Positions 13,065-38,432 of a stretch of 64,000 nucleotides of DNA are shown in pieces. Made by a program: the position numbers and the translations under genes. Source of the stretch: Pseudovibrio axinellae (GTDB taxonomy: Bacteria > Pseudomonadota > Alphaproteobacteria > Rhizobiales > Stappiaceae); the NCBI RefSeq assembly GCF_900110875.1, contig NZ_FOFM01000001.1, forward strand, positions 124,001 to 188,000, in the 5' to 3' direction. Below the pieces are notes generated by a model, which had not been told where the DNA came from, searched no databases, and was given only the letters and a program-made list of their open reading frames with translations. Numbering within the stretch: position 1 is the stretch's first letter; the number at the start of each line of letters is the position of its first letter.

Positions 13065-13352
13065 TTACACGCCTTCGACGATGATGATGTTGGCAATACC
13101 CGCATTTTCGCGATGCTTCTTAGCGCTCTGATATTCCTCGCTGTTGTAGCAAGCCATAGCAGATTCCATATCTTCGAATTCGATGACCACATTGCGCGCA
13201 TGACTGTCGCCTTCAAGGCTTTCGTACCTGCCACCACGCGCCAGGACATTGGCATTGTACTTTTTGAAAGCTGCTGAAGCCCCGTATGCGTAAGGCTTAT
13301 ATGCTTCTGGGTTGGTTACAGTCACATGTGCGATCCAATAGGCTTTTGGCAT
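13065..13352 (-). CDS. DUF1330 family protein
   Basis: Small protein of 95 residues with the ferredoxin-like dimeric alpha-beta barrel pattern of DUF1330: MPKAYWIAHVTV opening strand, ARGGRYESLEG, then VVIEFEDMESAMACYNS and YQSAKKHRE near the end. No catalytic role is established for the family; related barrels (EthD, NIPSNAP, antibiotic monooxygenase folds) act on small ring compounds. It is the last gene of the minus-strand pyrimidine group, 79 bp downstream of the NCS1 permease with a hairpin in between. A link to pyrimidine breakdown is suggested by position only. Confidence 0.9.
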   Translation of the reverse strand: MPKAYWIAHVTVTNPEAYKPYAYGASAAFKKYNANVLARGGRYESLEGDSHARNVVIEFEDMESAMACYNSEEYQSAKKHRENAGIANIIIVEGV

Positions 13353-13376
13353 TTGTTCCCTTTCGTCCTTAAATAA

Positions 13377-13404
13377 AAAGCGGCGGTTGTTCTGCCGCCG
13401 CTTT
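13377..13404 (-). terminator. Hairpin between the NCS1 permease and DUF1330 genes
   Basis: AAAGCGGCGG at 13377-13386 pairs perfectly with CCGCCGCTTT at 13395-13404 around an 8-nt loop. On the minus strand the A-run on the plus strand becomes a short U-tract (TTTTTATTT). It probably terminates or attenuates transcription from the permease gene. Confidence 0.75.
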
Positions 13405-13431
13405 CGATCTCTTCTCGAAATTGTCCTAGAC

Positions 13432-14931
13432 CTATTTGTTGAGGATTTTCGCTAGGATCAGGTAAGCGACGCCTGAGACGAACAATCCAACAAACCAAGC
13501 GTAGGTGTAGATCATCGCAAAGAACGGAGATGCCGCTTCTGAGAGGCCCACGCCAGCAAGGAAGCCAGGAAGGTTTGGCAAAATTCCGATTACCAATGCC
13601 AGCACGCCAGCCCAGTTCCAGCCACCAGAGCCGGAATAGATGCCGTTGTGCTTGAACAGGTCTTCAACGTTCAACTTGGTTTTACGCAGAATATAATAAT
13701 CAGCCAGCATGATACCTGCGATTGGGCCCAATAGTGCAGAGTATGCAATCAACCAGCCCACGATGTGGTTGACCAGCACCCATGGAAACATCACAAGACC
13801 GATGGCCGCTGTAATGTAACCGCCAGTGCGTAAGTTGATGGACTTTGGTGCAAGGTTGGAGAACCCGTGCGCCGGAGCAACAACATTTGCAGCCAAGTTT
13901 GTGGTCAAAGTCGCGACAATTAGCGCGAACAAAGCGATAATGATACTCGTACCGCCCATTTTTTCTGCCAGTACGATTGGGTCCCAGATTGCCTCACCAA
14001 AGATCACAACCGTTGCGGATGTAACAGCAGAAGCGATGAACGCAAACAGCGCCATTGGAATTGGAAGGCCAATGGCCTGTCCCATAAACTGATCTTTCTG
14101 GCTTTTCGCATAGCGCGTGAAGTCAGGAATGTTGAGCGCAAGTGTCGCCCAAAAACCCACCATACCTGTGAGGCTTGGCCAGAAGACAGACCAGAACTGC
14201 CCTTCTTTGGGCTGACCTTCCGCAAATTGGCTTGGCGTGGATAGCATTGCGCCAAAACCACCTGCATTTACATATGCCCATGCCAGCAAGGCCAGGCCCA
14301 TTGCGAGCAAGAATGGGGCTGCATAAGTTTCCAGCCAGCGGATGGATTCCGTTCCGTTTTTGATGAAGTAAAGATGCAGAGCCCAAAATGCGATGAAACA
14401 AGCAAACTGACCAGCGTTAATACCAAGGATCGGTAGTGGATCACCAGCAATTGCTCCGCTCATGAGCGTATTTAAGATCACATAAATCGCGGAGCCGCCA
14501 ACCCAGGTCTGGATGCCGAACCACCCACAAGCTACGATACCACGGGCTACGGCTGGCAGTTTTGCCCCAGCAGGGCCAAAGGATGAGCGCAGCAAAACCG
14601 GAAATGGAATGCCGTATTTTGTCCCTGCATGCCCGATAAGTACCATTGGAACAAGGACGATGGCGTTGGCAAGCAGAATAGTCATTACTGCCTGGTCCCA
14701 GCTCATGCCCGCACCAATCAAGTAGGATGCAAGCAAGTAAGTCGGGATACAAACGACCATGCCCACCCAAAGTGCAGAAATGGAAACCCAGTTCCATGTT
14801 CGCGCAATTGGTGCCGTTGGCAACTGGTCTTCATTATACAGGTCGGCATCAATGCCGACCAGTTCTTGATGGATAATACCAAACTCGTCGGGCACCACTG
14901 AACCAGCGGAGCCGACTGCTGAACTTGACAT
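13432..14931 (-). CDS. NCS1-family nucleobase/cyclic ureide permease
   Basis: Inner-membrane symporter of the nucleobase:cation symporter-1 family, whose members import uracil, cytosine, allantoin or hydantoins. The ATG at 14931 follows GGTGAGGGGGAATTATCTT and is preferred over the upstream GTG at 14949, giving 499 residues with about 12 hydrophobic segments. Family signatures are RTWNWVSISALWVGM in helix 1 and GWFGIQTWVGGSAIY, with the Trp/Gln pair that contacts the base in this family. It lies 108 bp downstream of the dihydropyrimidinase gene, with a terminator hairpin between. Context favours uracil/thymine or a related ring; the exact substrate is inference. Confidence 0.92.
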   Translation of the reverse strand: MSSSAVGSAGSVVPDEFGIIHQELVGIDADLYNEDQLPTAPIARTWNWVSISALWVGMVVCIPTYLLASYLIGAGMSWDQAVMTILLANAIVLVPMVLIGHAGTKYGIPFPVLLRSSFGPAGAKLPAVARGIVACGWFGIQTWVGGSAIYVILNTLMSGAIAGDPLPILGINAGQFACFIAFWALHLYFIKNGTESIRWLETYAAPFLLAMGLALLAWAYVNAGGFGAMLSTPSQFAEGQPKEGQFWSVFWPSLTGMVGFWATLALNIPDFTRYAKSQKDQFMGQAIGLPIPMALFAFIASAVTSATVVIFGEAIWDPIVLAEKMGGTSIIIALFALIVATLTTNLAANVVAPAHGFSNLAPKSINLRTGGYITAAIGLVMFPWVLVNHIVGWLIAYSALLGPIAGIMLADYYILRKTKLNVEDLFKHNGIYSGSGGWNWAGVLALVIGILPNLPGFLAGVGLSEAASPFFAMIYTYAWFVGLFVSGVAYLILAKILNK

Positions 14932-14996
14932 AAGATAATTCCCCCTCACCTTACACGCAGCGGAACCCCTCTTGATTTCCCCGCTACTTTTAAAAT

Positions 14997-15023
14997 AAAG
15001 CTCACGTACCCCACGTGAGCTTT
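14997..15023 (-). terminator. Terminator-like hairpin after the dihydropyrimidinase gene
   Basis: AAAGCTCACGT at 14997-15007 pairs perfectly with ACGTGAGCTTT at 15013-15023 around a 5-nt loop. On the minus strand it is followed by ATTTTA. It lies between the dihydropyrimidinase stop and the permease start, so the permease may have its own promoter or depend on readthrough. Confidence 0.75.
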
Positions 15024-15039
15024 GAACTTTGCCGTCAGG

Positions 15040-16494
15040 CTAAACGCCTGCTGGCATTAAGTCGGGTCGACGCTCAACTTTACGCGGCGCAGTAATCTCT
15101 TTCCACTTCGACAATGCAGCGTTGACCGGAGCATTTGGCTCTCGTCCAACAAATTCACCATGACCTGGTTCAACCTTAATTGTGCTTTCCTCAATCGCGA
15201 CTTTGCCGCGTGTGAGTGTAAAGCGTGGCAAACCGATCACTTCCTTGCCTTCAAAAACATTATATTCAACGCAAGACTGTTGTCGTGAGGCCGATATCGT
15301 CTTGGAGCGGTTTGGGTCCCAAACAACAATATCTGCATCCGCACCTTCAAGGATCGCGCCTTTTTTGGGATAGATATTGAGGATCTTAGCAATATTTGTA
15401 GACGTGACAGCCACGAACTCGTTCATCGTCAAGCGACCTGTACGAACACCAGTTGTCCATAACATTGGCATACGGTCTTCCAAACCACCTGTGCCATTGG
15501 GAATCCGTGTAAAATCACCTACGCCAAAACGCTTTTGCTCAATCGTAAAAGCACAATGGTCGGTTGCTACCACCTGTAAAGAACCAGACTGGAGGCCAGC
15601 CCAAAGGCTATCCTGGTGTTGTTTATTACGAAACGGTGGTGACATGACACGTTGTGCTGCATGATCCCAGTTCGGATTTGAGTACTCGCTATCGTCCAGT
15701 GTCAAATGCTGGATCAAAGGTTCACCATAGACACGCATGCCCTTTTGACGGGCGCGGCGGATTGCTTCATGGGCCTGTTCACAGCTTGTATGCACGATGT
15801 AGAGTGGCACTCCTGCCATATCTGCGATCATAATCGCACGGTTTGCTGCCTCACCTTCCACCTCTGGCGGACGAGAATAGGCATGCGCTTCGGGCCCGTT
15901 ATTGCCTTCTGACAACAGCTTTTGTTGCATTGTAGCGACAATATCGCCGTTCTCTGCATGAACAAGTGGCATTGCACCAAGGGCTGCACACCGCTGGAAG
16001 GATGCAAACATCTCGTCATCATCCACCATTAACGCGCCTTTGTAGGCCATGAAGTGCTTAAAGGTATTGATACCGCGATCAACCACTTCTTGCATTTCGT
16101 TGAAGACCTGCTCACTCCACCATGTGACTGCCATATGGTAGGAGTAATCTGCGCAAGCTGCACCGGACTTTTGTTGCCAAATGGCAAGGGCTTCCATCAT
16201 GGACTGACCGGGCTCAGGTAGGCAGAAATCAACCACCATGGTTGTTCCGCCAGCCAGACCAGCTCTTGTGCCAATTTCAAAGTTATCTGCTGAATGCGTC
16301 CCCATGAACGGCATTTCCAGATGTACATGGGGATCGATCCCGCCCGGCATCACGTAGCATTCGGAGGCATCAAGTGTTTCATCACCGGAAAGGTTCTCAC
16401 CAATCTCGATGATTTTATCGCCATCAACGAGTATATCGGATTTGTACGTTCTGTCGGCAGTTACAATAGTACCGCCTTTAATCACTGTGGTCAT
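15040..16494 (-). CDS. hydA: Dihydropyrimidinase (D-hydantoinase)
   Basis: Binuclear zinc amidohydrolase that opens 5,6-dihydrouracil or dihydrothymine (and 5-substituted hydantoins) to the N-carbamoyl beta-amino acid: step two of reductive pyrimidine degradation. The protein has 484 residues. All metal ligands are present: His56 and His58 (DPHVHLE), carbamylated Lys152 (FMAYKG), His179, His235 and Asp312 (ATDHCAF). It lies 43 bp downstream of the beta-ureidopropionase-type gene and is almost certainly in one operon with it. Allantoinase is less likely given the FMAYKGALMVDDDE region, typical of dihydropyrimidinases. Confidence 0.95.
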   Translation of the reverse strand: MTTVIKGGTIVTADRTYKSDILVDGDKIIEIGENLSGDETLDASECYVMPGGIDPHVHLEMPFMGTHSADNFEIGTRAGLAGGTTMVVDFCLPEPGQSMMEALAIWQQKSGAACADYSYHMAVTWWSEQVFNEMQEVVDRGINTFKHFMAYKGALMVDDDEMFASFQRCAALGAMPLVHAENGDIVATMQQKLLSEGNNGPEAHAYSRPPEVEGEAANRAIMIADMAGVPLYIVHTSCEQAHEAIRRARQKGMRVYGEPLIQHLTLDDSEYSNPNWDHAAQRVMSPPFRNKQHQDSLWAGLQSGSLQVVATDHCAFTIEQKRFGVGDFTRIPNGTGGLEDRMPMLWTTGVRTGRLTMNEFVAVTSTNIAKILNIYPKKGAILEGADADIVVWDPNRSKTISASRQQSCVEYNVFEGKEVIGLPRFTLTRGKVAIEESTIKVEPGHGEFVGREPNAPVNAALSKWKEITAPRKVERRPDLMPAGV

Positions 16495-16537
16495 ACTCTT
16501 GGTCTTTCAACTGAAATAGATCAATGATCGCAGGTAG

Positions 16538-17809
16538 TTATTCTGCCGGCTCTGATGCGTCCTGTACGATTCCAGCATATTCAAGCACTGCGTGAAATAA
16601 GACATCAGCTCCTGCTGTTGCCCAGGTTTGAAAGATCTCTTCATCTTCATTGTGGCTGAGCCCATCAACACATGGGCACATGATCATTGCTGTTGGCGCG
16701 ACACGGTTGATCCAACACGCATCATGGCCTGCGCCTGAAATGATGTTACGGTGCGAATAGCTCAAGCGCTCTGCTGCTGCGCGAACCGCTGAGACACAGC
16801 CTTCATCAAAGGTAACTGGGTCAAAATGGCCAACGGCTTCAATCTCAATTTCAAGGCCAAGCTCGGCAGCAATGTCCGGGGCTTGTGCTTCCAACTTCGC
16901 TTTCATTCCATCCAAAACATCTTGATGCGGGGATCGGAAATCGATGGTGAAAATGGTTTTGCCAGGAATCACATTGCGGCTATTGGGATAAACATCACAG
17001 TGACCGATCGCGCCCACCGCTTCTGGTTGATTTTCCATCGCAATCTGGTGAACAAGTTCGGTAATACGGGCCATACCAAGGCCTGCGTTTTTTCGCATGG
17101 GCATTGGTGTTGAGCCAGTGTGACTGTCTTTTCCTGTGAGGGTCACCTGAAGCCACCAGAGCCCCTGTCCGTGTGTGACGACGCCAATGTCTTTCTCATC
17201 AATTTCGAGGATTGGCCCCTGCTCTATGTGCAACTCAAACATCGCATGTAGTTTGCGCGCTCCAACAGGTTCATCCCCTACGTAGCCGATACGCTTCAGC
17301 TCATCGCCAAACTTTTTGCCATCCGCATCTTCACGTTCATAGGCCCACTCCTGCGTGTGCATGCCCGCAAAAACGCCAGAGGACAGCATAGCTGGCGCAA
17401 ACCGCGTACCTTCTTCATTTGTCCAGTTTACAACCTCAATCGGACGCTTTGTTTTGATGCCACGCTCACGCATGGAGCGTACCACTTCCAATCCGGCTAA
17501 TACGCCTAAAACGCCATCGAATTTGCCCCCAGTGGGCTGCGTATCAAGGTGAGAACCGATCATAATTGGATCTAGACTTGGATCTTCCCCTTCCAAACGT
17601 GCGAACATGTTGCCCATGCTATCAATATGCATGCTCATGCCTTCTGCCTCACACCATTTGGTAAAGAGCCTGCGACCCTCAGCATCCTCATCTGTGAGCG
17701 TTTGCCTGTTATTGCCACCACGAACGCCGGGTCCGATTTGAGCCATTTCCATTAGACTTCGCCACAGTCTATCACCATTAACACGATGATTTGAGCCAAG
17801 TTTACTCAT
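16538..17809 (-). CDS. hyuC: Beta-ureidopropionase / N-carbamoyl amino-acid amidohydrolase (M20 family)
   Basis: Metal-dependent amidase of the hydantoinase/carbamoylase family. It hydrolyses N-carbamoyl-beta-alanine (or beta-aminoisobutyrate) to the amino acid, CO2 and ammonia: step three of reductive pyrimidine degradation. The protein has 423 residues. M20 metal ligands are visible: His87 (GSHLDTQPTGG), Asp98 (GKFDGVLG), Glu132/Glu133 (WTNEEGTRF) and His194 (ELHIEQGP), plus a conserved SGAGHDAC motif. It is the first gene of the minus-strand group, facing the control region shared with cofG. Allantoate amidohydrolase is a close relative, but the dihydropyrimidinase neighbour argues for ureidopropionase. 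Confidence 0.93.
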   Translation of the reverse strand: MSKLGSNHRVNGDRLWRSLMEMAQIGPGVRGGNNRQTLTDEDAEGRRLFTKWCEAEGMSMHIDSMGNMFARLEGEDPSLDPIMIGSHLDTQPTGGKFDGVLGVLAGLEVVRSMRERGIKTKRPIEVVNWTNEEGTRFAPAMLSSGVFAGMHTQEWAYEREDADGKKFGDELKRIGYVGDEPVGARKLHAMFELHIEQGPILEIDEKDIGVVTHGQGLWWLQVTLTGKDSHTGSTPMPMRKNAGLGMARITELVHQIAMENQPEAVGAIGHCDVYPNSRNVIPGKTIFTIDFRSPHQDVLDGMKAKLEAQAPDIAAELGLEIEIEAVGHFDPVTFDEGCVSAVRAAAERLSYSHRNIISGAGHDACWINRVAPTAMIMCPCVDGLSHNEDEEIFQTWATAGADVLFHAVLEYAGIVQDASEPAE

Positions 17810-18381
17810 AGGTCTCTCCGATAACGCATTCTCAACGTTGTGTTATTCGACTTCCCCGCCTTCTATTCTTTGCGGAAGACAACAGGGTTGCCAGTATTAT
17901 TTAATCTCCCAAAGGAGCATAAAAAAATATATCGATGAGGGCTTTCACAGGATTCAAGCTGGCTCTCGTTCTTCGACATGCAAAACATGAAGCGATCATG
18001 CTCTTACAAGCTCCCAGAAAGTACATCAAAAATCCAAGAAGTCAGATTTCCCGTAGGGTTATTGATCCTGCCTGTAACAGATAGACATAATCTACAGAGA
18101 CCTTTCAATCACGCAATAGAATAAGTCATCTTAAACCTTGGAAGCTCCCCTCCCAAAACTTGGCTTAAATTGGACCAAACAGTCAATTATCTGTCAACCC
18201 ACCTTCCATATGGATCGATTTTAGCAGTCTCCTTCCCAAATTTGCCTTTCATTCCAACAAGTAAACGAGACAGGAGCTTCGTAATGGGTTCAAAATCGAG
18301 CACTTGAGCCAGATAAAACTCCACAGTTTCCTAATATTTATTGATGAGAATATTGAAGCCCACAGAATCAATTCACTATAT

Positions 18382-18616
18382 TTGCATACAAATAAAATTT
18401 AGATTTTGGATAGCTGCATATTTTTGCAGACACGGTAAACTTTTACGCAATTTAGCTTTATCAAACCAAATACTGCAAAGCACTTTTACATAAGATATTG
18501 CAACATATAGCTTTTTGTTGCTGCGAAACGGTATCTATTTTGCATATTTTATTTGCAGTGCAGCATATTTATTCCGTTCAATAGATATTTCACGCTTGAC
18601 TAACCGCGCATTGCAG
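18382..18616. repeat. Cluster of TTGCA/CTGCA and GCATATTT motifs upstream of cofG
   Basis: At least eight TTGCA or CTGCA pentamers occur in 235 bp, starting at 18382, 18414, 18424, 18473, 18498, 18540, 18553 and 18612. GCATATTT occurs three times (18416, 18542 and 18563). One pair forms CTGCATATTTTTGCAG (18414-18429), and GCAACA/TGTTGC forms a further dyad near 18500-18521. The density exceeds what AT-richness alone suggests and is compatible with tandem binding sites of a regulator. Confidence 0.4.
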
Positions 18617-18624
18617 ATATTTTT

Positions 18625-18640
18625 TTGACCGAGAGGTAAA
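18625..18640 (+). promoter_or_regulatory. Candidate RutR-type operator overlapping the cofG ribosome site
   Basis: TTGACCGAGAGGTAAA fits the E. coli RutR palindrome as I remember it (TTGACCA-2-TGGTCAA) at 11 of 14 defined positions. It ends six bases before the cofG ATG and contains its ribosome-binding GAGAGG. The overlap means the resemblance could be accidental. It is listed because a RutR-like regulator is encoded at the other end of the operon. Confidence 0.3.
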
Positions 18641-18646
18641 AAAATC

Positions 18647-19786
18647 ATGCTGACAGCTGACCAAGCACGACACCTGGGAAACGCACGCGGTTCAGATCTT
18701 CGCGATTTGATGCAGCAAGCTGCAGCAGTAAAGCGCCAGTATTGGGGCGAGACTGTCACCTACTCCCGTAAAGTTTTTGTGCCATTGACCAATATGTGCC
18801 GTGACACCTGCACCTATTGCACGTTTGTAAAACACCCTAGTTCTCCCGAGGCTCATATCATGACGCCTTCGCAAGTCATGCAGACTGCCCGCTCCGGGGA
18901 GAAAACGGGTTGCAAAGAGCTGCTTTTTAGTTTGGGTGAAAAGCCAGAGCTACGGTATGAGCACGCAAAGAGCGCGCTGGCAGCACTTGGTTACGATACC
19001 ATGATCGGTTATCTGGCCGATGTTTGCGAAATGGTATTGCAAGAGACCACGCTTCTTCCGCATGTGAATGCAGGCACGTTGAGCGATGATGAAATTGATC
19101 AACTGCGCCCTTATGCGGCCTCCATGGGCATGATGCTGGAAACCACTAGCAAACGCCTGATGAAGAAAGGCCAGCCACATTACGGTTGCCCAGACAAGTC
19201 CCCGCTTCAACGATTACGCACACTTGAACGCGCTGGCCAGAAGAAGGTTCCGTTCACAACAGGATTGCTGATCGGCATTGGCGAAACGTGGGGGGAGCGC
19301 ATTGAAGCGCTTGAAGCCATCAATGCCAGCCACGCTCGGTACGGGCACATTCAGGAAGTCATCATCCAGAACTTTCAACGCAAACCAGGCATCAGCATGG
19401 AAAACTCTCCTGAGCCGTCACTGACTGACATGCTACGCACGCTGGCCGTTGCACGCCTTATACTCTCGCCAGATATCAGCCTCCAGGCACCACCCAACCT
19501 GAATGAGCGGCACATCGAGTACCTGAACGCGGGTATCAATGATTGGGGCGGTATATCTCCTGTCACCATTGATTTCATTAATCCGCAGCATCGCTGGCCG
19601 GTGATCGAGGAATTAGCGAAATCGACGCAGTTGGCTGGTCAGAATCTAGAGGAAAGACTGACTGTCTATCCAAGCTATTTAACTGAGAAGACCGAGTTTA
19701 TTAATCCGGATGTTCTCTCCAAGTCACAAGGACTTTGGGAAAAAATTGGAACTTCTACGGCGCGTCACATAGGAGGTGTTCTATGA
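18647..19786 (+). CDS. cofG: FO synthase subunit 1 (7,8-didemethyl-8-hydroxy-5-deazariboflavin synthase, CofG)
   Basis: Radical-SAM enzyme that joins with CofH to form the deazaflavin chromophore FO of coenzyme F420 from a tyrosine adduct of the ribityl-uracil intermediate. The protein has 379 residues. The SAM cluster motif C-x3-C-x2-C is at Cys51, Cys55 and Cys58 (NMCRDTCTYC). The CofG hallmark FVPLTNMCRD and the C-terminal WGGISPVTIDFINP region are clear. It is the first gene of the plus-strand F420 operon, and its stop overlaps the cofH start (ATGA). CofG and CofH are separate proteins here, unlike the fused FbiC of actinobacteria. Confidence 0.96.
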   Translation: MLTADQARHLGNARGSDLRDLMQQAAAVKRQYWGETVTYSRKVFVPLTNMCRDTCTYCTFVKHPSSPEAHIMTPSQVMQTARSGEKTGCKELLFSLGEKPELRYEHAKSALAALGYDTMIGYLADVCEMVLQETTLLPHVNAGTLSDDEIDQLRPYAASMGMMLETTSKRLMKKGQPHYGCPDKSPLQRLRTLERAGQKKVPFTTGLLIGIGETWGERIEALEAINASHARYGHIQEVIIQNFQRKPGISMENSPEPSLTDMLRTLAVARLILSPDISLQAPPNLNERHIEYLNAGINDWGGISPVTIDFINPQHRWPVIEELAKSTQLAGQNLEERLTVYPSYLTEKTEFINPDVLSKSQGLWEKIGTSTARHIGGVL

Positions 19787-21057
19787 CTTTATATCGGTTC
19801 CCTGATACAGCGCACGATACGCTTTCCTCACAAAATCTCAGCCCTTTTATCCGTGATATTTTGAGCAAGGCGTTGACCGGCATCGAAGTGTCTCAGGCCG
19901 AAGGTGAAGTCTTGTTTCGTGCACAAGCGAATGACTTCCAGGCAATTGCCGATGTGGCAGATATTCTTCGACAACGCACCTGTGGTAATCGCGTGGGGTT
20001 TGTCATCAATCGGAATATCAATTTCACCAATGTTTGTTACATGGGCTGCACGTTCTGCGGCTTTGCCAAACGAAGCGAAGACCCCGCAGCAGAGTGGCTT
20101 ATCCCGGAACAGATAGTCGTTCGCGCTCGCGAAGCATGGAACCGCGGCGCAACTGAAGTATGCATTCAAGGTGGATTGCATCCCAAAATGTCTGGGACTT
20201 ATTACCGTGAGATTGTTCTTGCTATCAAAGAAGCACTCCCAGACATGCATATTCATGCATTTTCACCATTTGAGGTTTGGTATGGCGCTTCGAAGACCAA
20301 ACAGAGCTATGTGGACTTTCTTCAAGACCTAAAAGATTGTGGCCTTGGATCTATGCCGGGGACGGCAGCTGAAATTTTGGATACAGATATTCGCCGCCAG
20401 CTGACCCGCAATAAGCTCAGCACCGAGAAGTGGGTTGAAATTATCAAGGCAGCTCATCATGTTGGTCTCCCAACTACAGCAACGATTATGTACGGTCATA
20501 TTGATGGCCCCGAGCACTGGGCAGCTCACTTAAGTCTCCTTCGTGACATACAAAAGGAGACTGGCGGCTTTACTGAGCTGGTACCCTTGAGTTTCGTTCA
20601 TTCAGAGAGCCCATTGTATACCCAAAACCCGGAGAGCGTACGCCCTGGACCAACCAATTTGGAAGTGCGTAAAATGCACGCCATTGCACGCATCATGCTG
20701 AATGGGTGGATCGATAACATTCAGGTGTCATGGACAAAACTGGGTGCGGAGTTTGCCCGCGAACTGCTGATGTGTGGTGTCAATGATTTAGGCGGCACGC
20801 TGATGAATGAAAGTATTTCCCGATCTGCAGGCGCTGCACATGGCCAGGAAATCACGGCCTATGAGATGTGCCAAGTCATCCAGAGCTCTGGAGAACAGCC
20901 AATACAGCGAAATAGCATTTACGGCGTGATTGACGACTTTTCAACGGGTCTCCCAGAGCAACAAGCGCCGTTGATTAAGCGCCAAAACTCTGAGCTTCTG
21001 GGTTTTCTTAGCGAGAACAAAAATGCTCCAGCACAGGCTCTGGAAGGCACTGGATGA
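19783..21057 (+). CDS. cofH: FO synthase subunit 2 (CofH)
   Basis: Radical-SAM enzyme that couples tyrosine to 5-amino-6-ribitylamino-uracil, giving the substrate of CofG. The true start is the ATG at 19783, after AGGAGG at 19771-19776 and overlapping the cofG stop. The open frame continues upstream without meaning. The protein has 424 residues, with the cluster cysteines Cys85, Cys89 and Cys92 (NVCYMGCTFCGF). ARIMLNGWIDNIQVSW and GGTLMNESISRSAGA near the C-terminus are typical of CofH. It overlaps cofD by ATGA, showing tight translational coupling. Confidence 0.96.
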   Translation: MTLYRFPDTAHDTLSSQNLSPFIRDILSKALTGIEVSQAEGEVLFRAQANDFQAIADVADILRQRTCGNRVGFVINRNINFTNVCYMGCTFCGFAKRSEDPAAEWLIPEQIVVRAREAWNRGATEVCIQGGLHPKMSGTYYREIVLAIKEALPDMHIHAFSPFEVWYGASKTKQSYVDFLQDLKDCGLGSMPGTAAEILDTDIRRQLTRNKLSTEKWVEIIKAAHHVGLPTTATIMYGHIDGPEHWAAHLSLLRDIQKETGGFTELVPLSFVHSESPLYTQNPESVRPGPTNLEVRKMHAIARIMLNGWIDNIQVSWTKLGAEFARELLMCGVNDLGGTLMNESISRSAGAAHGQEITAYEMCQVIQSSGEQPIQRNSIYGVIDDFSTGLPEQQAPLIKRQNSELLGFLSENKNAPAQALEGTG

Positions 21058-22034
21058 CAAACAAGGCCAAAGTAAAAGTCACGCTCATTGCTGGTGGCGT
21101 GGGCGGCGCCAAAATGGCGGAAGGTTTATATCACTTAGATAATGTTGCGCTGTCTATCATTGGCAACATTGCAGATGACGAAGCATTTCACGGCCTGTGG
21201 GTTTCACCAGATATCGACACACTCACCTATACGCTCTCGGATGTGATTGATCGTGACCAAGGCTGGGGGGTGGCAGATGAAAGTCATCGAACATTGGAGA
21301 CCCTGTCCAAACTGGGTGATGATACATGGATGTCACTGGGAGATCGTGATTTTGGTCTTCACATTTGCCGTACACATCGGCGTGCCTGTGGTGATCGCCC
21401 CACGTTGATCGCCCGCGATATCGCCAAGAGTTTCGGTTTAACATGCGATATAGTTCTACCCACAGACGATACCGTCCAAACCCGAGTAAGGTCTGATCAG
21501 GGCTGGCTGAGTTTTCAGGAGTATTTCGTCAAAGAACGCTGCGCACCCGAGGTTCGGGAATTGCAATATGAAAATATTGAAAAAGCGCAAGTGACGAACG
21601 AAGCTCTTGAAGCACTTGGAACCGCTGACCTTATTGTGATCGCTCCCAGCAATCCATTAGTCAGTATTTTGCCGATCCTAAAGGTGCCCGGTGTTTTAGA
21701 GGCAATCAAAGCCTCCAGTGCACCGAAAATTGGTGTTTCACCAATCATCAATGGCGGCGTGGTGAAAGGGCCAGCCGATCGGATGCTGGCCTCCTTGGGT
21801 TATGACGCGACCGCCTTTGGAGTTGCGCAAATTTATGCAGGCTTTCTGGATGGCTTTGTGATCGATCACGCTGACGCGCAGCATGTGCCGGCAATGCGTG
21901 AACTTGGCCTGAACACCCACTTAGACACTATCCTTATGAAAACGCGCGAGGACAAAATACGTCTTGCTGAACAGCTACTCGGCTTATCTGGTGTATTGGA
22001 CAGCATAGATTTAGTATCTGAGGGGGGAAACTGA
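21054..22034 (+). CDS. cofD: 2-phospho-L-lactate transferase (CofD / FbiA type)
   Basis: Transfers the phospholactyl (or equivalent) group from the guanylylated precursor to FO, forming F420-0 or its analogue. The protein has 326 residues. The nucleotide-binding GGVGGAK motif lies at residues 14-20, followed by the FO-contacting stretch IIGNIADDE and the GLWVSPDIDTLTYTL segment of the family. The C-terminal part has SPIINGGVVKGPADRML, also a CofD hallmark. Position fourth-overlap-style within cofG-cofH-cofD-cofC supports the call. The actual precursor (2-phospholactate, PEP or 3-phosphoglycerate) cannot be told from sequence by eye. Confidence 0.95.
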   Translation: MTNKAKVKVTLIAGGVGGAKMAEGLYHLDNVALSIIGNIADDEAFHGLWVSPDIDTLTYTLSDVIDRDQGWGVADESHRTLETLSKLGDDTWMSLGDRDFGLHICRTHRRACGDRPTLIARDIAKSFGLTCDIVLPTDDTVQTRVRSDQGWLSFQEYFVKERCAPEVRELQYENIEKAQVTNEALEALGTADLIVIAPSNPLVSILPILKVPGVLEAIKASSAPKIGVSPIINGGVVKGPADRMLASLGYDATAFGVAQIYAGFLDGFVIDHADAQHVPAMRELGLNTHLDTILMKTREDKIRLAEQLLGLSGVLDSIDLVSEGGN

Positions 22035-22684
22035 TGACGGAGAAACTCGTCAAAACCCTCATCGTGGTGCCCGTAAAGGACTTTGCTCTGGCAAAATCAC
22101 GTTTAGGGCCACACTTGGACGCAGTTGAGCGTGCGAAGGTGGCAGAAAACCTGTTTGCACAAACTCTGTCTTTCTTACAAGAGGTCCAGCACCGTAATCG
22201 AATTGCCGTCGATGTTGCTGTGGTGACCAGCTCAGAAGAAATTGCTGAACGAGTCGGCACTGGTTTCGCCCACCTCATACGCGAGGCACAGGTGGCTGGG
22301 TTAAACTCAGCTTTAGCAACAGCAGCAGATTGGGCAAGCACCCACAACTACGAAACCCTTTGCGTTTTGCCTGCAGATATTGCAGCTCCTGATTTTGAGG
22401 AGTTTGAGCGCATCCTTAGTCTTGGAGGGAAACCACTCTCTCTTACGCTGTGTCCTTCTCACGATTATGGCACCAATGTCCTTGTCGTAACGCCGCCTAA
22501 TGCGATCACATTCACGTATGGAAGTGCTTCATTCTTGAAGCATCAAAAACAGGCAGCCGAGCGCGGTCTTGAATGTATCATCGCCCCCTCCTCATCCTTT
22601 TCTAGAGATATCGACTATATGGAAGATTTGACGGTGGCTCAGCCGATGCTCCTTACAAAACTGTCTGAGCGGAGAGCTGTTTGA
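22034..22684 (+). CDS. cofC: 2-phospho-L-lactate (or PEP / 3-phosphoglycerate) guanylyltransferase (CofC)
   Basis: Activates the three-carbon acid with GTP for use by CofD. The protein has 216 residues with the nucleotidyltransferase start VVPVKDFALAKSRLGP, and VLPADIAAPDFEEFE as the metal-binding core. The motif CPSHDYGTNVLVVTPP is the CofC-specific substrate region. It overlaps cofD by one base (TGATG). Known CofC enzymes differ in using 2-phospholactate (archaea), PEP (mycobacteria) or 3-phosphoglycerate (Paraburkholderia/Mycetohabitans), so which F420 variant is made here is open. Confidence 0.92.
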   Translation: MTEKLVKTLIVVPVKDFALAKSRLGPHLDAVERAKVAENLFAQTLSFLQEVQHRNRIAVDVAVVTSSEEIAERVGTGFAHLIREAQVAGLNSALATAADWASTHNYETLCVLPADIAAPDFEEFERILSLGGKPLSLTLCPSHDYGTNVLVVTPPNAITFTYGSASFLKHQKQAAERGLECIIAPSSSFSRDIDYMEDLTVAQPMLLTKLSERRAV

Positions 22685-23454
22685 TGCATTCAGTTTCACT
22701 CCACGCGATCCCCGATATTCCAGAAATCAAACCGGGAGATGAGCTCCCAAAAATCCTTGGCGATGCCATTGAGGCATGCGGACTATCTTTGAAGGACGGA
22801 GATGTCCTGACATCCGCTCATAAGATTTTCTCTAAGGCTGAGGGGCGTATCGTCAACCTGACAACCGTTACTCCCTCCCAAGATGCTAAGCGCTATGGGG
22901 AGGAGCTTAACAAAGACCCACGCAAGGTTGAGGTGATTTTGCAGGAGAGTCGCCGGGTGGTCCGTCATTTCAAACGGCCGACGCAACACGAAGGAACCAT
23001 AATCTGCGAGCACAAGCTTGGTTTTATTTCTGCCAATGCTGCCGTGGATGAATCCAACAGTGGTCAGGACCAAACCCTGATTTTGCTCCCAGAGGACCCC
23101 GATACCAGTGCAAGGCATATGCAAGCCGCTTTGTCCAAGCGCTTCAACGTTCGCATTGGATTTGCAATCACCGATACATTTGGGCGGCCTTGGCGCTTAG
23201 GGCAGGTAAATGTGGCAGTGGGCCTTTCCGGCATTCCTGCCACCATCAAAGAACAGGGCAACACGGACGCGCATGGGCGGGTCTTAAACGTCACTGAGCC
23301 TGCATTTGCTGATGAGTTGGCTGCTGCGTCTGGTCTCGTCATTTCAAAAGCGGGGCAAACACCAGTTGTTCTGTTTCGTGGGTTGAGCTGGAATTTCACT
23401 GAGAGTTCAGCGCAGAACTTAATCAGATCCCAAAAGGAGGACATGTTCCGATGA
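22684..23454 (+). CDS. cofE: Coenzyme F420-0:L-glutamate ligase (CofE)
   Basis: Adds gamma-linked glutamates to F420-0 using GTP. The ATG at 22684 overlaps the cofC stop by one base, giving 256 residues. CofE hallmarks are [35 protein letters not shown] and [15 protein letters not shown]. It is a stand-alone ligase: it lacks the C-terminal nitroreductase-like domain of mycobacterial FbiB, which reduces dehydro-F420. If PEP were the precursor, a reductase would have to be encoded elsewhere. Overlap with the next gene by ATGA. Confidence 0.95.
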
Positions 23455-24119
23455 CATTAGCGATTATCGGAGGAACCGGGCCGCAGGGCCAGGGGCTCGC
23501 ACTTAGGTTTGCCCGCGCTGGCATTCCGGTGGCCCTGGGTTCTCGTGATGCTGCCCGAGGCAAGGACATTGCAAAAGATCTTATGAGTAAACTCCCAAAA
23601 GCAGCTGCTCATATCGAAGGTATGGGCAATGAAGATGCCGTTACTGCTGCAACCGAATGCGTGATGCTCGCGGTGCCCTATGCAGCGCATAACGCTACGC
23701 TTGATGCTCTGAAGCCGCACCTTACTGGCAAAATCCTCATTGATATTGTGGTGCCACTTGCTCCAGGCGACCCGAAGACCGTCGAAATGCCACCAGAAGG
23801 CTCTGCCACGGAGGCTGCGCAGGCGTTGCTTGGGCCAGATATTCCGGTTGTAGGAGCGTTACATAACGTTTCTGCTACAACCTTGAACAACCTTGAGTGG
23901 GCAATCAACTGCGATATCCTTGTATGCGGAGACAGCCTTGAGGCACGTAAGGTGGTGATGGAGCTGGTCAACAAATTGGACGTGAAGACTTATAACAGCG
24001 GCAACGCCAAAGCCGCACGTTGCATAGAAGCTATTACTCCAATTCTTATTCGCCAGAACATTTCAAAAGCCGTGCCATTCACACATGCGGGCATTCGTAT
24101 TTGGGCACCGGATCACTAA
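23451..24119 (+). CDS. npdG: NADPH:F420 oxidoreductase (Fno/NpdG)
   Basis: Transfers hydride between NADPH and F420, here most likely making F420H2 for the next enzyme. The protein has 222 residues. The N-terminal Rossmann motif [15 protein letters not shown] begins at residue 5. Ser31-Arg32 in GSRDAARG stand where the 2'-phosphate of NADP is bound in this family. The central [14 protein letters not shown] and the [14 protein letters not shown] segment are typical of NpdG. It is translationally coupled to cofE and 32 bp before the LLM gene. The ribosome site AAAGGAGG is near perfect. Confidence 0.94.
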
Positions 24120-24151
24120 TTACGTTACTTTAAGAAGTGGAGGAGAGAGAC

Positions 24152-25186
24152 ATGGACTTTGGTATTTGTTTTAAAGGGTTTGTAGAGCCTGACCGCGCAC
24201 GCGCACTTGTCCGACAAGCTGAAAATGCAGGCTTTAAGTACTGCTGGTTTTATGACAGCCACATTTTATGGCGCGAAAGCTATGTAGCAATGGCGATGTG
24301 TATGGAGCACACAAAAACCATGCGATTTGGGCCGTGTGTGACCAACCCGAACACCAGGGACTGGTCTCATGCAGCCAGCTTGTTTGGATCACTTGCAAAG
24401 CAGTCTGGCGGCCGTTTTGACATTGGTCTGGGTCGCGGCGACAGCGCTGTACGTGTGATGGGCAAGAAACCTGCTCCGCTGAAGCGCCTAGAGGAATTCA
24501 CCCATGTTGTAAAAACGCTGGTGCGCGGTGATGAAGCGCAATACGGTGAATGCCCTGAGCCCGTAAAATTTCCTTGGGCTGATGGCTACGAGCTTCCTGT
24601 ATGGGTTGCTGCATACGGCCCCAAAGCCTTGAACTCTGCCGGGCGTGTAGGCGATGGACTAATATTGCAGATTGCTGAGCCAGCAATTTGTAAATGGCTG
24701 GGTAGCCAAGCGATTGCAGCCGGTGAGGAAGCAGGCCGCGACATGAGCAATTTCGGCATTATGGCTGCTGCGCCAGCACACACTGGCTCATTGGAAGAAG
24801 GAATTGAGAAGACCAAATGGTTCCCCGCTATGGTCGGCAACCACGTTGCAGATATCGTAGAAAAATACGGCTCAAATAGCGACCAGGTACCGGAAAGTCT
24901 GACATCTTACATCGAAAATCGTCGCGGCTACGATTACTCCAAGCATGGTCAAAGCGATAATCCCTTCTTAGATTTCATTACCGATGACATCGTTGAAAGC
25001 TTTGCTGTTCTGGGCCCACCAGAAAACCACATTAAAAAACTAAACAAGCTTAAGGATGCTGGCATTACCCAGTTCAACATTTACCTGGACAGTGGCGATG
25101 AAGAAAAAATTATTGCTGATTATGGTGAGAAGATCATCCCTGCGTTCACTACCGAGAACACAAGACTATCGGAACCTGTGAGCTAA
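24152..25186 (+). CDS. LLM-class F420-dependent oxidoreductase; candidate uracil/thymine reductase
   Basis: Luciferase-like TIM-barrel protein of 344 residues, start ATG 24152 after GGAGGAGAG. The N-terminal MDFGICFKGF strand, YCWFYDSHILWRE near residues 30-41, GPCVTNPNTRDW, RFDIGLGRGDSAVRVMG and VWVAAYGPKALN match the F420-dependent branch of the LLM superfamily. By eye it resembles the CPS_4612-type subgroup, but this is unverified. It is the last gene of the F420 operon, so it is the best candidate for the cofactor's user. With dihydropyrimidinase and ureidopropionase divergently encoded and a RutR-like regulator next door, reduction of the pyrimidine 5,6 double bond is a specific, untested proposal. 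An oxygenase role like RutA, or another substrate, remains possible. Confidence 0.85.
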   Translation: MDFGICFKGFVEPDRARALVRQAENAGFKYCWFYDSHILWRESYVAMAMCMEHTKTMRFGPCVTNPNTRDWSHAASLFGSLAKQSGGRFDIGLGRGDSAVRVMGKKPAPLKRLEEFTHVVKTLVRGDEAQYGECPEPVKFPWADGYELPVWVAAYGPKALNSAGRVGDGLILQIAEPAICKWLGSQAIAAGEEAGRDMSNFGIMAAAPAHTGSLEEGIEKTKWFPAMVGNHVADIVEKYGSNSDQVPESLTSYIENRRGYDYSKHGQSDNPFLDFITDDIVESFAVLGPPENHIKKLNKLKDAGITQFNIYLDSGDEEKIIADYGEKIIPAFTTENTRLSEPVS

Positions 25187-25194
25187 CATAGGCT

Positions 25195-25218
25195 GACCGG
25201 GCAGGTAAAAGCCCGGTC
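25195..25218 (+). terminator. Terminator-like hairpin at the end of the F420 operon
   Basis: GACCGGGC at 25195-25202 pairs perfectly with GCCCGGTC at 25211-25218 around an 8-nt loop. The following TACTTCTTGC is only a modest U-tract. It marks the likely end of the cofG to LLM transcript, 8 bases after the LLM stop. Confidence 0.6.
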
Positions 25219-25273
25219 TACTTCTTGCAATGGGTGTCTTTTAGACAACGCATGCCAAGAGTGAGGAGCTCAC

Positions 25274-25333
25274 ATAACTACAGAAAAGCAATAGTTATCC
25301 GTGTCAGTTAGTTCATCACGACTTTTCTAACTG
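25274..25333. promoter_or_regulatory. Two inverted repeats upstream of the RutR-like gene
   Basis: ATAACTA (25274-25280) faces TAGTTAT (25292-25298), and CAGTTAG (25305-25311) faces CTAACTG (25327-25333). Both use TAACT/AGTTA half-sites and lie 100-160 bp before the regulator start. They may be operators for autoregulation. The first resembles the ATAAC...GTTAT dyad at 17821-17846 beside the amidohydrolase gene. Confidence 0.35.
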
Positions 25334-25435
25334 AGCTGAACTTGATATCAGCAACTTGTTTTCGTTAGTGCTCATGTGTTCAATCCCTCCGAGCTTTCGG
25401 TTTCGCCTCGGGGGTGTCGCAGTTTGGAAAAAATA

Positions 25436-26065
25436 ATGGCTAAGGCTTCTGAGGCAAAAGGCAAAACACGCATTCAGATAGAGAAGACTGAGAAGATCCT
25501 CGCAGCAGCACTTGATGTTTTCTCAACCTACGGATTTCGTGGATCTACGATTGATCAGGTTGCACAGAAAGCCGGATTATCGAAGCCGAACCTCTTTTAT
25601 TACTATGATAGCAAGGACGCTATACATGCCGAGCTGATCGAACGTTTGCTTTACATTTGGCTAGACCCGCTACATCAGCTCAACCCTGAAGGCGAACCTA
25701 TCGAAGAAATTTGCTCCTATGTAAAACGTAAGCTTGAAATGGCACGAGATTACCCGCGGGAGAGTCGGTTATTTGCCAATGAAATTTTGCAGGGTGCGCC
25801 GCGTATTAACACTCTGATTGCTGGGCCATTAAAATCTCTGGTGGACGAGAAAACGACAGTGATTCAAAGCTGGATCGATGCAGACAGGATCGCTGAGACT
25901 GACCCATATCACTTGCTATTTTCAATTTGGTCGACCACACAACACTACGCAGATTTTGACAGTCAGGTCCAAACACTACTTCCAAGTGAGCGAATAAAAA
26001 ATAGGTTCCAGGATGCAGCAGCCCATCTGGACCGTATGTTCCGAAAGAGTCTTTCTCCGCATTAA
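25436..26065 (+). CDS. RutR-like TetR-family regulator, probable pyrimidine sensor
   Basis: TetR repressor-type protein of 209 residues, start ATG 25436 (GGAAAA upstream); the open frame reaching back to 25376 is not needed. The N-terminal helix-turn-helix ends in KPNLFYYYDSKDAIH. The C-terminal domain strongly resembles E. coli RutR: RDYPRESRLFANEILQGAP, LVDEKTTVIQSWI and the block IWSTTQHYADF. Trp75, Trp165 and Gln169 fall where I recall the RutR uracil-pocket residues. RutR binds uracil and thymine and controls pyrimidine catabolism. Its place just behind the F420/LLM operon suggests that this operon and the divergent hydrolase operon respond to pyrimidines. It is convergent with btuD, only 9 bp away. 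Confidence 0.87.
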   Translation: MAKASEAKGKTRIQIEKTEKILAAALDVFSTYGFRGSTIDQVAQKAGLSKPNLFYYYDSKDAIHAELIERLLYIWLDPLHQLNPEGEPIEEICSYVKRKLEMARDYPRESRLFANEILQGAPRINTLIAGPLKSLVDEKTTVIQSWIDADRIAETDPYHLLFSIWSTTQHYADFDSQVQTLLPSERIKNRFQDAAAHLDRMFRKSLSPH

Positions 26066-26074
26066 GCACAAGTG

Positions 26075-26836
26075 CTACAAGCGCGCTGCTGGTGTAATGA
26101 TAGGCCCCTGCTCTGTTTTTACAATTTGCGCACTCACGCGGTAAACATCTTGCACGCGCTCTTGTGTCAAGACTTGCTCAGGCGTGCCGCAGGCGACCAC
26201 TTTTCCATCTTTTAACATAACCAACGTGGTGCAGAGTCGGGCAGCATAGGTCCAGTCATGCAGGCTTACCAGCATAGAGGTGCCTTGTTCCCTTAGGTTT
26301 TGAAAAATCTCGCTCAGTTCGAGCTGATGTTCCGGGTCAAGACCAGCAGTGGGTTCATCTGCAACAATCAATGGCGTCTTTTGCATGAGCGCACGACCGA
26401 GAAGTGCTCTTGTTTTTTCGCCACCTGAAACCTGAAGGATCGATGACTTTCTGATCGTTTCTAGGCTCAGGCTTTTTATGATCTGCTTACGTTGCTCTTT
26501 GTATTTTGGGGTGCGTACAGAACCTCCAACTGCCTCGCAGCCCAGGGCGAGAACGCGTTCAACGGTTAGGTCCCATGCAACATCGCGCTCCTGCGCCACG
26601 TAAGCAACATGCCTGGAAAGTTGTTTTACCGAAATGCTTGAAAGAGGCTGTCGGCCATAGCTGATTTCTCCGCAAGAGGGGATCAAACCCACCAATGCCT
26701 TCATGAGCGTGGATTTACCTGAGCCGTTGGGACCAATTAGCCCAACAATCTCGCCCCTACCAATCTCCAGATTGATCGATGACAGCACCTGACGCTGGCC
26801 ATAGTTGGCCGACACGTTGTTAAGTTGAAGTAACAT
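26075..26836 (-). CDS. btuD: Vitamin B12 ABC transporter ATP-binding protein (BtuD)
   Basis: Cytoplasmic ATPase subunit of a FecCD/BtuCD-type importer, 253 residues. Walker A GPNGSGKST near residues 36-44, signature QVSGGEKTRALLGRAL and Walker B LIVADEPTAGLDPEH are present. Its start overlaps the btuC stop (TGATG). The upstream receptor gene follows a cobalamin riboswitch, so cobalamin rather than iron-siderophore is the likely cargo. In the signature, SGGEK replaces the more usual SGGEQ, a minor variation. Confidence 0.9.
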   Translation of the reverse strand: MLLQLNNVSANYGQRQVLSSINLEIGRGEIVGLIGPNGSGKSTLMKALVGLIPSCGEISYGRQPLSSISVKQLSRHVAYVAQERDVAWDLTVERVLALGCEAVGGSVRTPKYKEQRKQIIKSLSLETIRKSSILQVSGGEKTRALLGRALMQKTPLIVADEPTAGLDPEHQLELSEIFQNLREQGTSMLVSLHDWTYAARLCTTLVMLKDGKVVACGTPEQVLTQERVQDVYRVSAQIVKTEQGPIITPAARL

Positions 26837-27834
26837 CAGATCAATGCCCTGCGTTGTTTAAGAATTAGCCACAGGAAGAACGGCGCGCCCACAAGAGCGG
26901 TCAAAACACCAAGTTTCAAGTTGGATTGGGGGCCAAACAGCTTCACGGCGATGTCGGCCAGTGTTAATAAACATGCCCCAGCAAGGGCACTTGGAAGCAA
27001 CAGGCGGGCTGGTTCATCGTCAACCATCTTTCGCAGCAGGTGCGGCACAATTAGTCCAATAAAACCGATAGTGCCTGTTACAGCAGTCACAGCTCCCACA
27101 CTTGCTGCGGTTCCAGCAATTGCACAAAACCGAAGTGTTGGCAGTGAAACGCCCATTGTATGCGCAGTCTCCTCCCCCAATGACAACGCGTTCAGGCCTT
27201 TGCCTGTGACGAAAAGTAGGCCCCAGCCAACCATGATAAAGGGAGCAATAATGTACAGATGCTGCATAGAACGATCATTTAACGAACCCAACATCCAAAA
27301 TACGATTTCCATAGCAGCGAAGGGATTGGGCGAGAGATTGAGAGCCAGCGACGTGAGTGCTGTCGCAATACTTGAGATAGCAACACCTGCCAGTATGAGC
27401 GTTAGTGTTTGCCCGCGCCCACCCGCCAGTAAAGGCAAAAGCGCCGCTGCAATACCTGCACTCGCCAATGCAAAGATGGGCAACGCAAACGGCATTGTGA
27501 GTGTTATGCCTGTATAGATAGCAATGACCGCGCCAAGACTTGCTGAGGAACTCACCCCAATTAAACCTGGCTCAGCCAGAGGGTTTCGCAAAAGACCTTG
27601 CAGAACAGCTCCAGACAGCCCCAGCGTGGCACCTGTGATCACGCCAAGCAGAGCACGGGGCACGCGAATTTCCCATAGCACTGTTGAAACTGGCGTATCT
27701 TGCGTAGACAACGCTGCATTTATCAGTTGCGGAAGCGACAAATCTGCTGCGCCAAGCATTAAGGAAGCCAAGAACAGCGTTGCTGTTATTATACTCAGCG
27801 CCCAGATAAGCACGGCATCTGACGTGTATTTCAT
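26836..27834 (-). CDS. btuC: Vitamin B12 ABC transporter permease (BtuC)
   Basis: Inner-membrane permease of the FecCD family, 332 residues with about 10 hydrophobic segments. The opening WEIRVPRALLGVITGATLGLSG, the LAEPGLIGVSSSASLGA segment and GTIGFIGLIVPHLLRKM are typical of the family. It overlaps btuF by ATGA and btuD by TGATG, so the three genes form one translationally coupled unit downstream of btuB. Confidence 0.92.
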   Translation of the reverse strand: MKYTSDAVLIWALSIITATLFLASLMLGAADLSLPQLINAALSTQDTPVSTVLWEIRVPRALLGVITGATLGLSGAVLQGLLRNPLAEPGLIGVSSSASLGAVIAIYTGITLTMPFALPIFALASAGIAAALLPLLAGGRGQTLTLILAGVAISSIATALTSLALNLSPNPFAAMEIVFWMLGSLNDRSMQHLYIIAPFIMVGWGLLFVTGKGLNALSLGEETAHTMGVSLPTLRFCAIAGTAASVGAVTAVTGTIGFIGLIVPHLLRKMVDDEPARLLLPSALAGACLLTLADIAVKLFGPQSNLKLGVLTALVGAPFFLWLILKQRRALI

Positions 27835-28712: not shown

Positions 28713-28828
28713 TTAAGACCCGAGATTGTCTTTCAAAGCCAATGGTTGCCCCTTGTAGCTCCTATTGTTCTGAAAACAAACGCTCTTTATTTGCTGGATC
28801 CTACACTGATAGAGAAAAACACAGCACA

Positions 28829-38184: not shown

Positions 38185-38432
38185 TACGATGACCTTAGAA
38201 ATGCAAAATACAGCAACTCATTTTTATGATTAACGCTTAATTAAAACTGTAAAAAACGACCAGGCAAGACAAACGATCCCCAGATGCTTTTACAGTTTGT
38301 ACAGAACTAGGTGAAAGTTCCACCTTTTCTCTTCATGACGTTCATTTTTGACTGTGGAATACACGCTGTACTAACTCACATGTGCGACCATTGCCTTCAA
38401 AATGCCTCATTACTGCAAATCAGGAGCCAGTC

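Follow-up and report, generated by a model that had tools for sequence, protein, structure and literature searches.

A divergent gene cluster of Pseudovibrio axinellae probably degrades pyrimidines with an F420-dependent LLM-class reductase in place of PreTA

Genes of the locus and of the host genome

The window, a stretch of 64,000 nucleotides from Pseudovibrio axinellae, contains a divergent locus in which genes for pyrimidine breakdown face genes for making and reducing the rare cofactor F420. An earlier reading of the letters alone (hereafter the sequence-only reading) had proposed that this locus encodes a reductive pyrimidine degradation system, in which an F420-dependent enzyme of the LLM class (luciferase family) takes the place of the dihydropyrimidine dehydrogenase PreTA. 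In this study, the proteins of the window were scored against NCBIfam models with curated cut-offs and against Pfam. All coordinates given below for features of the locus are positions in the window.

Three genes lie on the minus strand. The NCS1 nucleobase:cation symporter (13432..14949; PF02133, 365 bits; TIGR00800, 364 bits against a cut-off of 353) would be responsible for pyrimidine uptake. It is followed by the dihydropyrimidinase HydA, or PydB (15040..16494; TIGR02033, 587 bits against 393), and by the M20 hydrolase HyuC (16538..17809; TIGR01879, 399 against 204; PF01546). The best-scoring model for HyuC (PRK09290.1-3, 693 against 452) bears the name of allantoate amidohydrolase; we take the protein to be a PydC-type beta-ureidopropionase. 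On the plus strand, the two FO synthase subunits CofG (18647..19786; TIGR03550, 464 bits against 213) and CofH (19783..21057; TIGR03551, 493 against 374) are followed by CofD (21054..22034; TIGR01819, 276 against 257), CofC (22034..22684; TIGR03552, 139 against 105) and the F420-0 gamma-glutamyl ligase CofE (22681..23454; TIGR01916, 236 against 181). Then come NpdG (23451..24119; TIGR01915, 184 against 150), the NADPH:F420 oxidoreductase that would make F420H2, and the LLM-class oxidoreductase (24137..25186), the proposed F420H2-dependent reductase of uracil or thymine. The genes from cofG through the LLM gene are closely packed, and the run ends with a hairpin on the same strand, read directly from the sequence (GACCGGGC-8-GCCCGGTC, 25195..25218), which follows the LLM stop codon and possibly marks the end of the operon. 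The last gene, also on the plus strand, encodes a TetR-family regulator (25436..26065). It matches the RutR model TIGR03613 with 219 bits and misses the equivalog cut-off of 368, so that it can be called RutR-like only.

All of these genes were found where the sequence-only reading had placed them, and the enzymes and the permease each exceed at least one NCBIfam cut-off. Two starts had to be moved by inspection: the open reading frame of cofH opens at 19735 with the most likely start at 19783, and that of the regulator opens at 25376 with the start at 25436. The system had been drawn as 13065..26065; it occupies 13432-26065, and no part of it was assigned to 13065-13431.

The LLM protein scored 505 bits with TIGR03842 (F420_CPS_4043), far above the cut-off of 295, although the name of this family does not assign a function. 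Its closest solved structures are those of the F420-dependent enzyme Mer (8qq8, 8qpm, 8qpl and 1f07; E 5.5e-29), and nine of its ten matches in the PDB carry the name of an F420 enzyme (Mer, hydroxymycolic acid dehydrogenase, Adf or FGD). Since F420 genes are present and its closest relatives are F420-dependent, the protein appears to belong with the F420-dependent LLM hydride transferases.

The host genome (5.13 Mb) is 99.9% complete. PreA was not found in it: the PreA model (cut-off 335) scored 47 bits at most, and the single protein of the DHO_dh family is the quinone-dependent PyrD. A PreTA pair elsewhere in the genome, which would have spoken against the sequence-only reading, was thus looked for and not found. 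At this completeness, a gap in the assembly is an unlikely reason for the lack of PreA. The single luciferase-family protein of the genome is the LLM protein of the cluster, and the host therefore has no RutA. A search of the host genome with PF04075 gave no match, nor did its controls, and it therefore does not bear on other F420 enzymes. HydA, HyuC and a nucleobase permease are all encoded, yet no known enzyme was found that would carry out the first reduction, with the possible exception of the LLM protein. The beta-alanine aminotransferase PydD is not encoded in the window; the rest of the genome was not searched for it.

Related loci and their PreTA-linked counterparts

We compared the locus with the best 80 of 255 relatives found in named genomes and with four plasmid loci, which gave 84 LLM loci in total. 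Neighbour counts were taken over 82 of these loci, and counts of pyrimidine-pathway neighbours over the 62 loci that are 16 kb or longer. The npdG gene stands beside the LLM gene in 74/82 loci, and cofD or cofE in 77/82, as the sequence-only reading would have it for the cof genes. An F420-glucose-6-phosphate dehydrogenase was found in 7/82 loci, never together with NpdG, and only one locus has neither. In these seven loci the LLM gene points away from the cof genes, and the CofG-type gene is long, with a median of 793 residues, and apparently a CofGH fusion. The LLM gene is thus kept while the F420 reductant and the layout of the cof genes vary, which indicates that the cofactor-making and electron-feeding modules have been swapped. 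As for the pyrimidine pathway, 46 of the 62 loci have at least one neighbour that belongs to it, and hydA or hyuC is present in 30 of them. Pyrimidine hydrolases were therefore seen to accompany the LLM clade, as expected.

The gene order varies considerably among the relatives. The divergent order of the window recurs in Pseudovibrio, where the LLM proteins of four other strains (L004-L007) are 92-94% identical to that of the host, in Thalassovita, and in Paracoccus denitrificans (L015), whose order is the same as in the window. The cluster is also present in SAR116 records and in alphaproteobacterial single-cell genomes. In two SAR116 loci (L027 and L029), hydA, an ABC transporter and an NMT1-type binding protein precede cofG on one strand, and an AptA-like gene follows the LLM gene. 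In the single cells the order is cofD-cofE-npdG-LLM-EamA-hyuC-hydA-ABC-NMT1-aminotransferase; the final aminotransferase matches glutamate-semialdehyde aminomutase models under the cut-off. For planktonic single cells whose locus has no cof genes besides cofD and cofE, scavenging of the precursor FO was considered. This assumption proved unneeded, since CofH was found in 10 of 12 such genomes (13/15 of all searched).

On a complete Leisingera plasmid (L110), NCS1-hydA-hyuC-aminotransferase-pntB-pntA faces cofG-H-D-C-E-npdG-LLM-TetR. The aminotransferase, which sits with PntAB between hyuC and cofG, is of the AptA type (742 against 500 bits). AptA-like genes occur in 7/84 LLM loci, one of them over the AptA cut-off, while PntA occurs in 11/84 and PntB in 6/84. 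The transhydrogenase genes pntAB lie at 5266-8283 of L110 and at 12001-15991 of L112; their presence in the clusters would fit a demand for NADPH to feed NpdG. In nine other loci (L014, L018, L020, L022, L024, L025, L026, L028 and L032) the contig breaks off shortly before cofG; several of these ends fall within pntA, and they perhaps lie at repeated DNA. A Caballeronia plasmid carries an apparent remnant with an LLM fragment, a hydrolase, alanine dehydrogenase and pntB. On a Streptomyces plasmid (L111, 6067-13017), hydA directly precedes a TIGR03842 gene (44% identical), and a CN-hydrolase is encoded nearby; this arrangement suggests that the same pathway exists in Actinomycetota.

Co-occurrence was analyzed in 248 genomes from the family of Leisingera, which we take to be Rhodobacteraceae. 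The LLM protein was found in 12 genomes and CofD in 12, and these are the identical 12 genomes (chance about 1e-20, kinship ignored). Together with the frequencies of npdG and of cofD or cofE given above, this match shows that the gene arrangement is not due to chance. PreA is present in 206/248 genomes, namely in 3/12 with the LLM protein and in 203/236 without it (Fisher p 7.8e-6). PreA was also not found in the genome of Paracoccus denitrificans (G298). One record of the sample (L018), with a Leisingera-type cluster, is titled Nocardioides marinus, and its genome (G301) entered the sample as a member of the Leisingera family; it is probably mislabelled or contaminated.

The loci were further compared with 29 fetched loci that contain PreA. 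A search with PreA proteins (E 1e-5) within the fetched DNA found PreA in 29/29 of these PreTA loci and in 0/84 LLM loci. HydA is encoded in 22/29 PreTA loci (52-87% identical to HydA of the window), HyuC in 22/29 (53-76%) and a RutR-like regulator in 19/29 (32-60%). Many of the PreTA loci also encode NMT1/ABC or NCS1 transporters or AptA-like proteins. HydA of the window groups, in a tree of 50 rows, with the PreTA-linked protein of L157 (support 96/95), and the supported branches of this HydA tree force at least seven changes from one linkage, LLM or PreTA, to the other. At least five such supported changes are forced in the HyuC tree, which has 52 rows. In 500 shuffles the labels never became as clustered as they are in these trees, which kinship would predict; long branches are those of L111 (HydA) and L112 (HyuC). 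The simplest reading of these trees is that one uracil reductase has repeatedly been exchanged for another on the same hydrolase background.

Next to the system in the window, at 26075-30646, lies an uptake set of the cobalamin or siderophore type (TonB receptor, FecCD-type permease, ATPase and binding protein). It is also present in the Pseudovibrio loci L004-L009, and iron-chelate uptake genes occur near the cluster on the Leisingera plasmid. The models of B12 and F420-0 transporters gave scores under the cut-off on this set. Three large open frames of the window (92-3229, 38382-39626 and 39663-41783) have no Pfam match.

Operator-like palindromes

The target of RutR is a palindrome of about 16 bp, according to the part of PMC10891134 that deals with it. 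Using the presumed E. coli consensus, we scanned 1.67 Mb of DNA in 93 loci (80 relatives, 4 plasmid loci and 9 PreTA loci) for such palindromes. At least 13 of 14 positions matched at 23 sites, 20 of which lie in the upstream windows of pathway genes (76 kb, 4.6% of the DNA; binomial 2e-24). Exact matches numbered six for the real consensus and none for 40 palindromes with shuffled half-sites. Among 58 evaluable operon starts, each compared with 100 shuffles, a site was found at p <= 0.01 in 32 and at p <= 0.05 in 37, and at least 12 matches were reached in 22. Sites of at least 11/14 were also found in 13 of the 16 LLM loci that lack pyrimidine neighbours, and a link to pyrimidines can therefore hold without gene adjacency. 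In the PreTA loci the same motif is located near the rutR-like or hyuC gene, for example with 14/14 in L133.

In the window, the hyuC-cofG divergent intergenic region of 837 bp contains two places of interest. A putative RutR-type operator, TTGACCGAGAGGTAAA (18625..18640, shuffle p = 0.008), overlaps the likely ribosome-binding site of cofG. It is identical in L004-L007 and changed by one base in L008, and palindromes of 14/14 are similarly placed close upstream of cofG in L045, L050 and L052. The second place (18166..18202), which has the same letters in the window and in L004-L008, is a conserved footprint within the divergent promoter region; its RutR-like partial palindrome (18171-18186) matches at 11/14, which is reached in 5% of shuffles of the whole intergenic region and is weak on its own. 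Taken together, putative RutR-type operators precede many LLM operons, with up to 14/14 in relatives and 11/14 in the window.

The proposed pathway and its alternatives

These observations are very probably explained by reductive, Pyd-type pyrimidine degradation in which an unrelated LLM enzyme, dependent on F420H2, has taken the place of PreTA/PydA. The replacement put forward by the sequence-only reading is thus supported computationally by the absence of PreA from the host, by the relatives of hydA, hyuC and the regulator in PreTA loci, and by the repeated switching. From the gene content, these shared parts and the operator-like sites, we infer the following reaction, substrate and action of the repressor. 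The NCS1 permease would import uracil or thymine. CofGHDCE would synthesise F420, and NpdG would reduce it using NADPH. With a hydride from F420H2, the LLM enzyme would then reduce the C5-C6 double bond to give dihydrouracil or dihydrothymine. F420H2 is a strong hydride donor that reduces activated double bonds, and the reduction of uracil at C5-C6 would therefore be chemically natural. HydA would open the dihydropyrimidine ring, and HyuC would release ammonia, CO2 and beta-alanine or beta-aminoisobutyrate. In some relatives, though not in the window, an AptA-type aminotransferase may continue the pathway. The RutR-like repressor would allow cofactor and enzyme to be made when pyrimidines are present. 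Possible advantages over PreTA, on which we can only speculate, are the sparing of iron and a pull towards complete reduction through PntAB and NpdG.

The recognised routes of pyrimidine degradation are given in the relevant part of PMC12507026 as oxidative, reductive, Rut and URC. The Pyd pathway (PreTA/PydA, PydB, PydC and PydD) shares with the cluster close relatives of the dihydropyrimidinase, the ureidopropionase-type hydrolase and the RutR-like regulator, and relatives share transporter types and the omega-aminotransferase. The PydB and PydC models were matched in the window, whereas PydA/PreTA was found neither in the cluster nor in the genome. The first enzyme here is of the F420 type and the LLM class, not an iron-sulfur flavoenzyme of the DHO_dh family, and F420 biosynthesis is encoded in the operon. 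Variants of uracil reduction with NADPH, NADH or ferredoxin, as far as they are described in the relevant part of PMC7332683, all belong to the PydA/PyrD family. The ferredoxin-dependent PydAc of Clostridium chromiireducens is such a variant with a changed electron donor and still belongs to this family (PMC7332683), whereas the enzyme family itself differs in the cluster. Two further proteins come close to the proposed reaction. SSGG-03002/NpsU of Streptomyces, which takes part in the synthesis of mureidomycin and napsamycin as a putative oxidoreductase dependent on F420/FMN, reduces C5-C6 of the uracil ring as judged by gene disruption and NMR, in the account excerpted from PMC10714638. This reaction, possibly with F420, resembles the one proposed here, but it serves antibiotic tailoring rather than catabolism, and F420 is a putative cofactor there. 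In Chloroflexota urate clusters, a putative F420-dependent luciferase-family yanthine reductase has been proposed from gene neighbourhood, according to the part of PMC12507026 concerned. As in our case, an LLM protein would replace an NAD(P)H enzyme in the reduction of a uracil-like ring; unlike in our case, the pathway is that of a purine (urate), in another phylum, and it is a proposal. No description of an F420-dependent pyrimidine degradation pathway was found in searches of an open-access library, although a subscription paper could exist; the sequence-only reading, likewise, knew of none.

Several facts weigh against the F420-dependent replacement of PreTA. Neither hydA nor hyuC stands beside the LLM gene in 32/62 loci, and 16/62 have no pyrimidine-pathway neighbour at all. 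PreA is also present in 16 of the 40 LLM genomes that were searched out of the 80 (Leisingera, Limimaricola, Thalassovita, Epibacterium, Shimia, Tritonibacter and the doubtful L018). It follows that the F420 system is additional in these genomes and that the replacement is not universal. The predicted anti-correlation with PreA was thus seen in the one family sample and is not strict. The Fisher and tree-label tests allow for kinship only in part, and the genome with the doubtful label, one of the 12 LLM genomes, was kept in the counts. In the wider class sample, CofD was found in 44/289 genomes and the LLM protein in 4/289, all four with CofD; most alphaproteobacterial F420 therefore serves other ends. 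PreA is present there in 0/4 LLM genomes and in 48/285 others, four being too few to test the anti-correlation. As for the operators, 21/58 operon starts have no site at p <= 0.05, including that of Paracoccus denitrificans L015 (p 0.09), and the putative operator of the window itself scores only 11/14. Moreover, the purified mureidomycin enzyme gave no product on assay, as reported in the part of PMC10714638 concerned.

It is conceivable, but unlikely, that the LLM enzyme acts in the pathway on another pyrimidine or ring as its natural substrate (hydantoin, cytosine or a modified base), while PreTA handles uracil where both are present. The retention of PreA in some LLM genomes would agree with such a division, as would Leisingera, where hydA, hyuC and NCS1 stand beside the LLM gene on the plasmid and hyuC and hydA stand beside PreA in another genome (L133); in addition, NCS1 permeases and this class of hydrolases, as families, accept several ring compounds. 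On the other hand, no PreA was found in the host or in 24/40 LLM genomes, HydA, HyuC and the RutR-like regulator of the window are close kin of PreTA-linked proteins, and HydA and HyuC switch partners repeatedly.

It is very improbable that the LLM protein is a Mer- or Adf-like enzyme of one-carbon carrier or alcohol metabolism and only a chance companion of the F420 genes and the pyrimidine operon. Mer is of the same superfamily and provides the nearest solved structures, and some loci have no pyrimidine neighbours; in that of Paracoccus alcaliphilus (L109), cof-npdG-LLM is accompanied by genes for formate dehydrogenase and for another kind of ABC transporter, with no hydA in 25 kb. Mer has, however, another family model and another substrate: the Mer model gave 122 bits (cut-off 349) against 505 for TIGR03842. 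The association with hydA and hyuC recurs across gene orders and on the Streptomyces plasmid, and operator-like sites precede even operons lacking pyrimidine neighbours. That the LLM protein is instead a RutA-like monooxygenase, which would depend on FMN and open the uracil ring by oxidation, can hardly be entertained at all. RutA is of the LLM superfamily, and the Rut pathway serves uracil catabolism under RutR control; it depends on FMN and oxygen, opens the ring oxidatively and has other downstream genes, so that HydA and HyuC would not be needed. The 18 NCBIfam matches of the LLM protein include no RutA model, no rut enzyme was matched among the neighbouring genes scanned, and the F420 enzymes among the PDB matches, like the cof genes beside the LLM gene, also argue against this explanation.

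The proposed replacement of PreTA by an F420H2-dependent enzyme would bear on a question raised by a 2021 review, in the part of it that concerns Proteobacteria: why these bacteria make F420 is described there as open, only trace F420 is noted for Paracoccus denitrificans, and experimental studies of bacterial F420-dependent reductases are said to have been limited to Actinobacteria (PMC8498797). On balance, we favor the view that marine Alphaproteobacteria, Rhodobacteraceae among them, make F420 on induction as a cofactor dedicated to catabolism. Its whole pathway would be placed under a pyrimidine-sensing repressor solely for the reduction of uracil and thymine by an enzyme that is not related to any known dihydropyrimidine dehydrogenase, with PreTA and the F420 enzyme swapped repeatedly, and the feeder (NpdG or F420-glucose-6-phosphate dehydrogenase) as well. 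If so, the trace F420 of Paracoccus denitrificans would be explained, as the organism may not have been grown on pyrimidines. If the replacement itself is true, it would explain why some Proteobacteria make F420, and it would add a second, unrelated family of catabolic uracil reductases beside the PydA/PyrD family described in the relevant part of PMC7332683.

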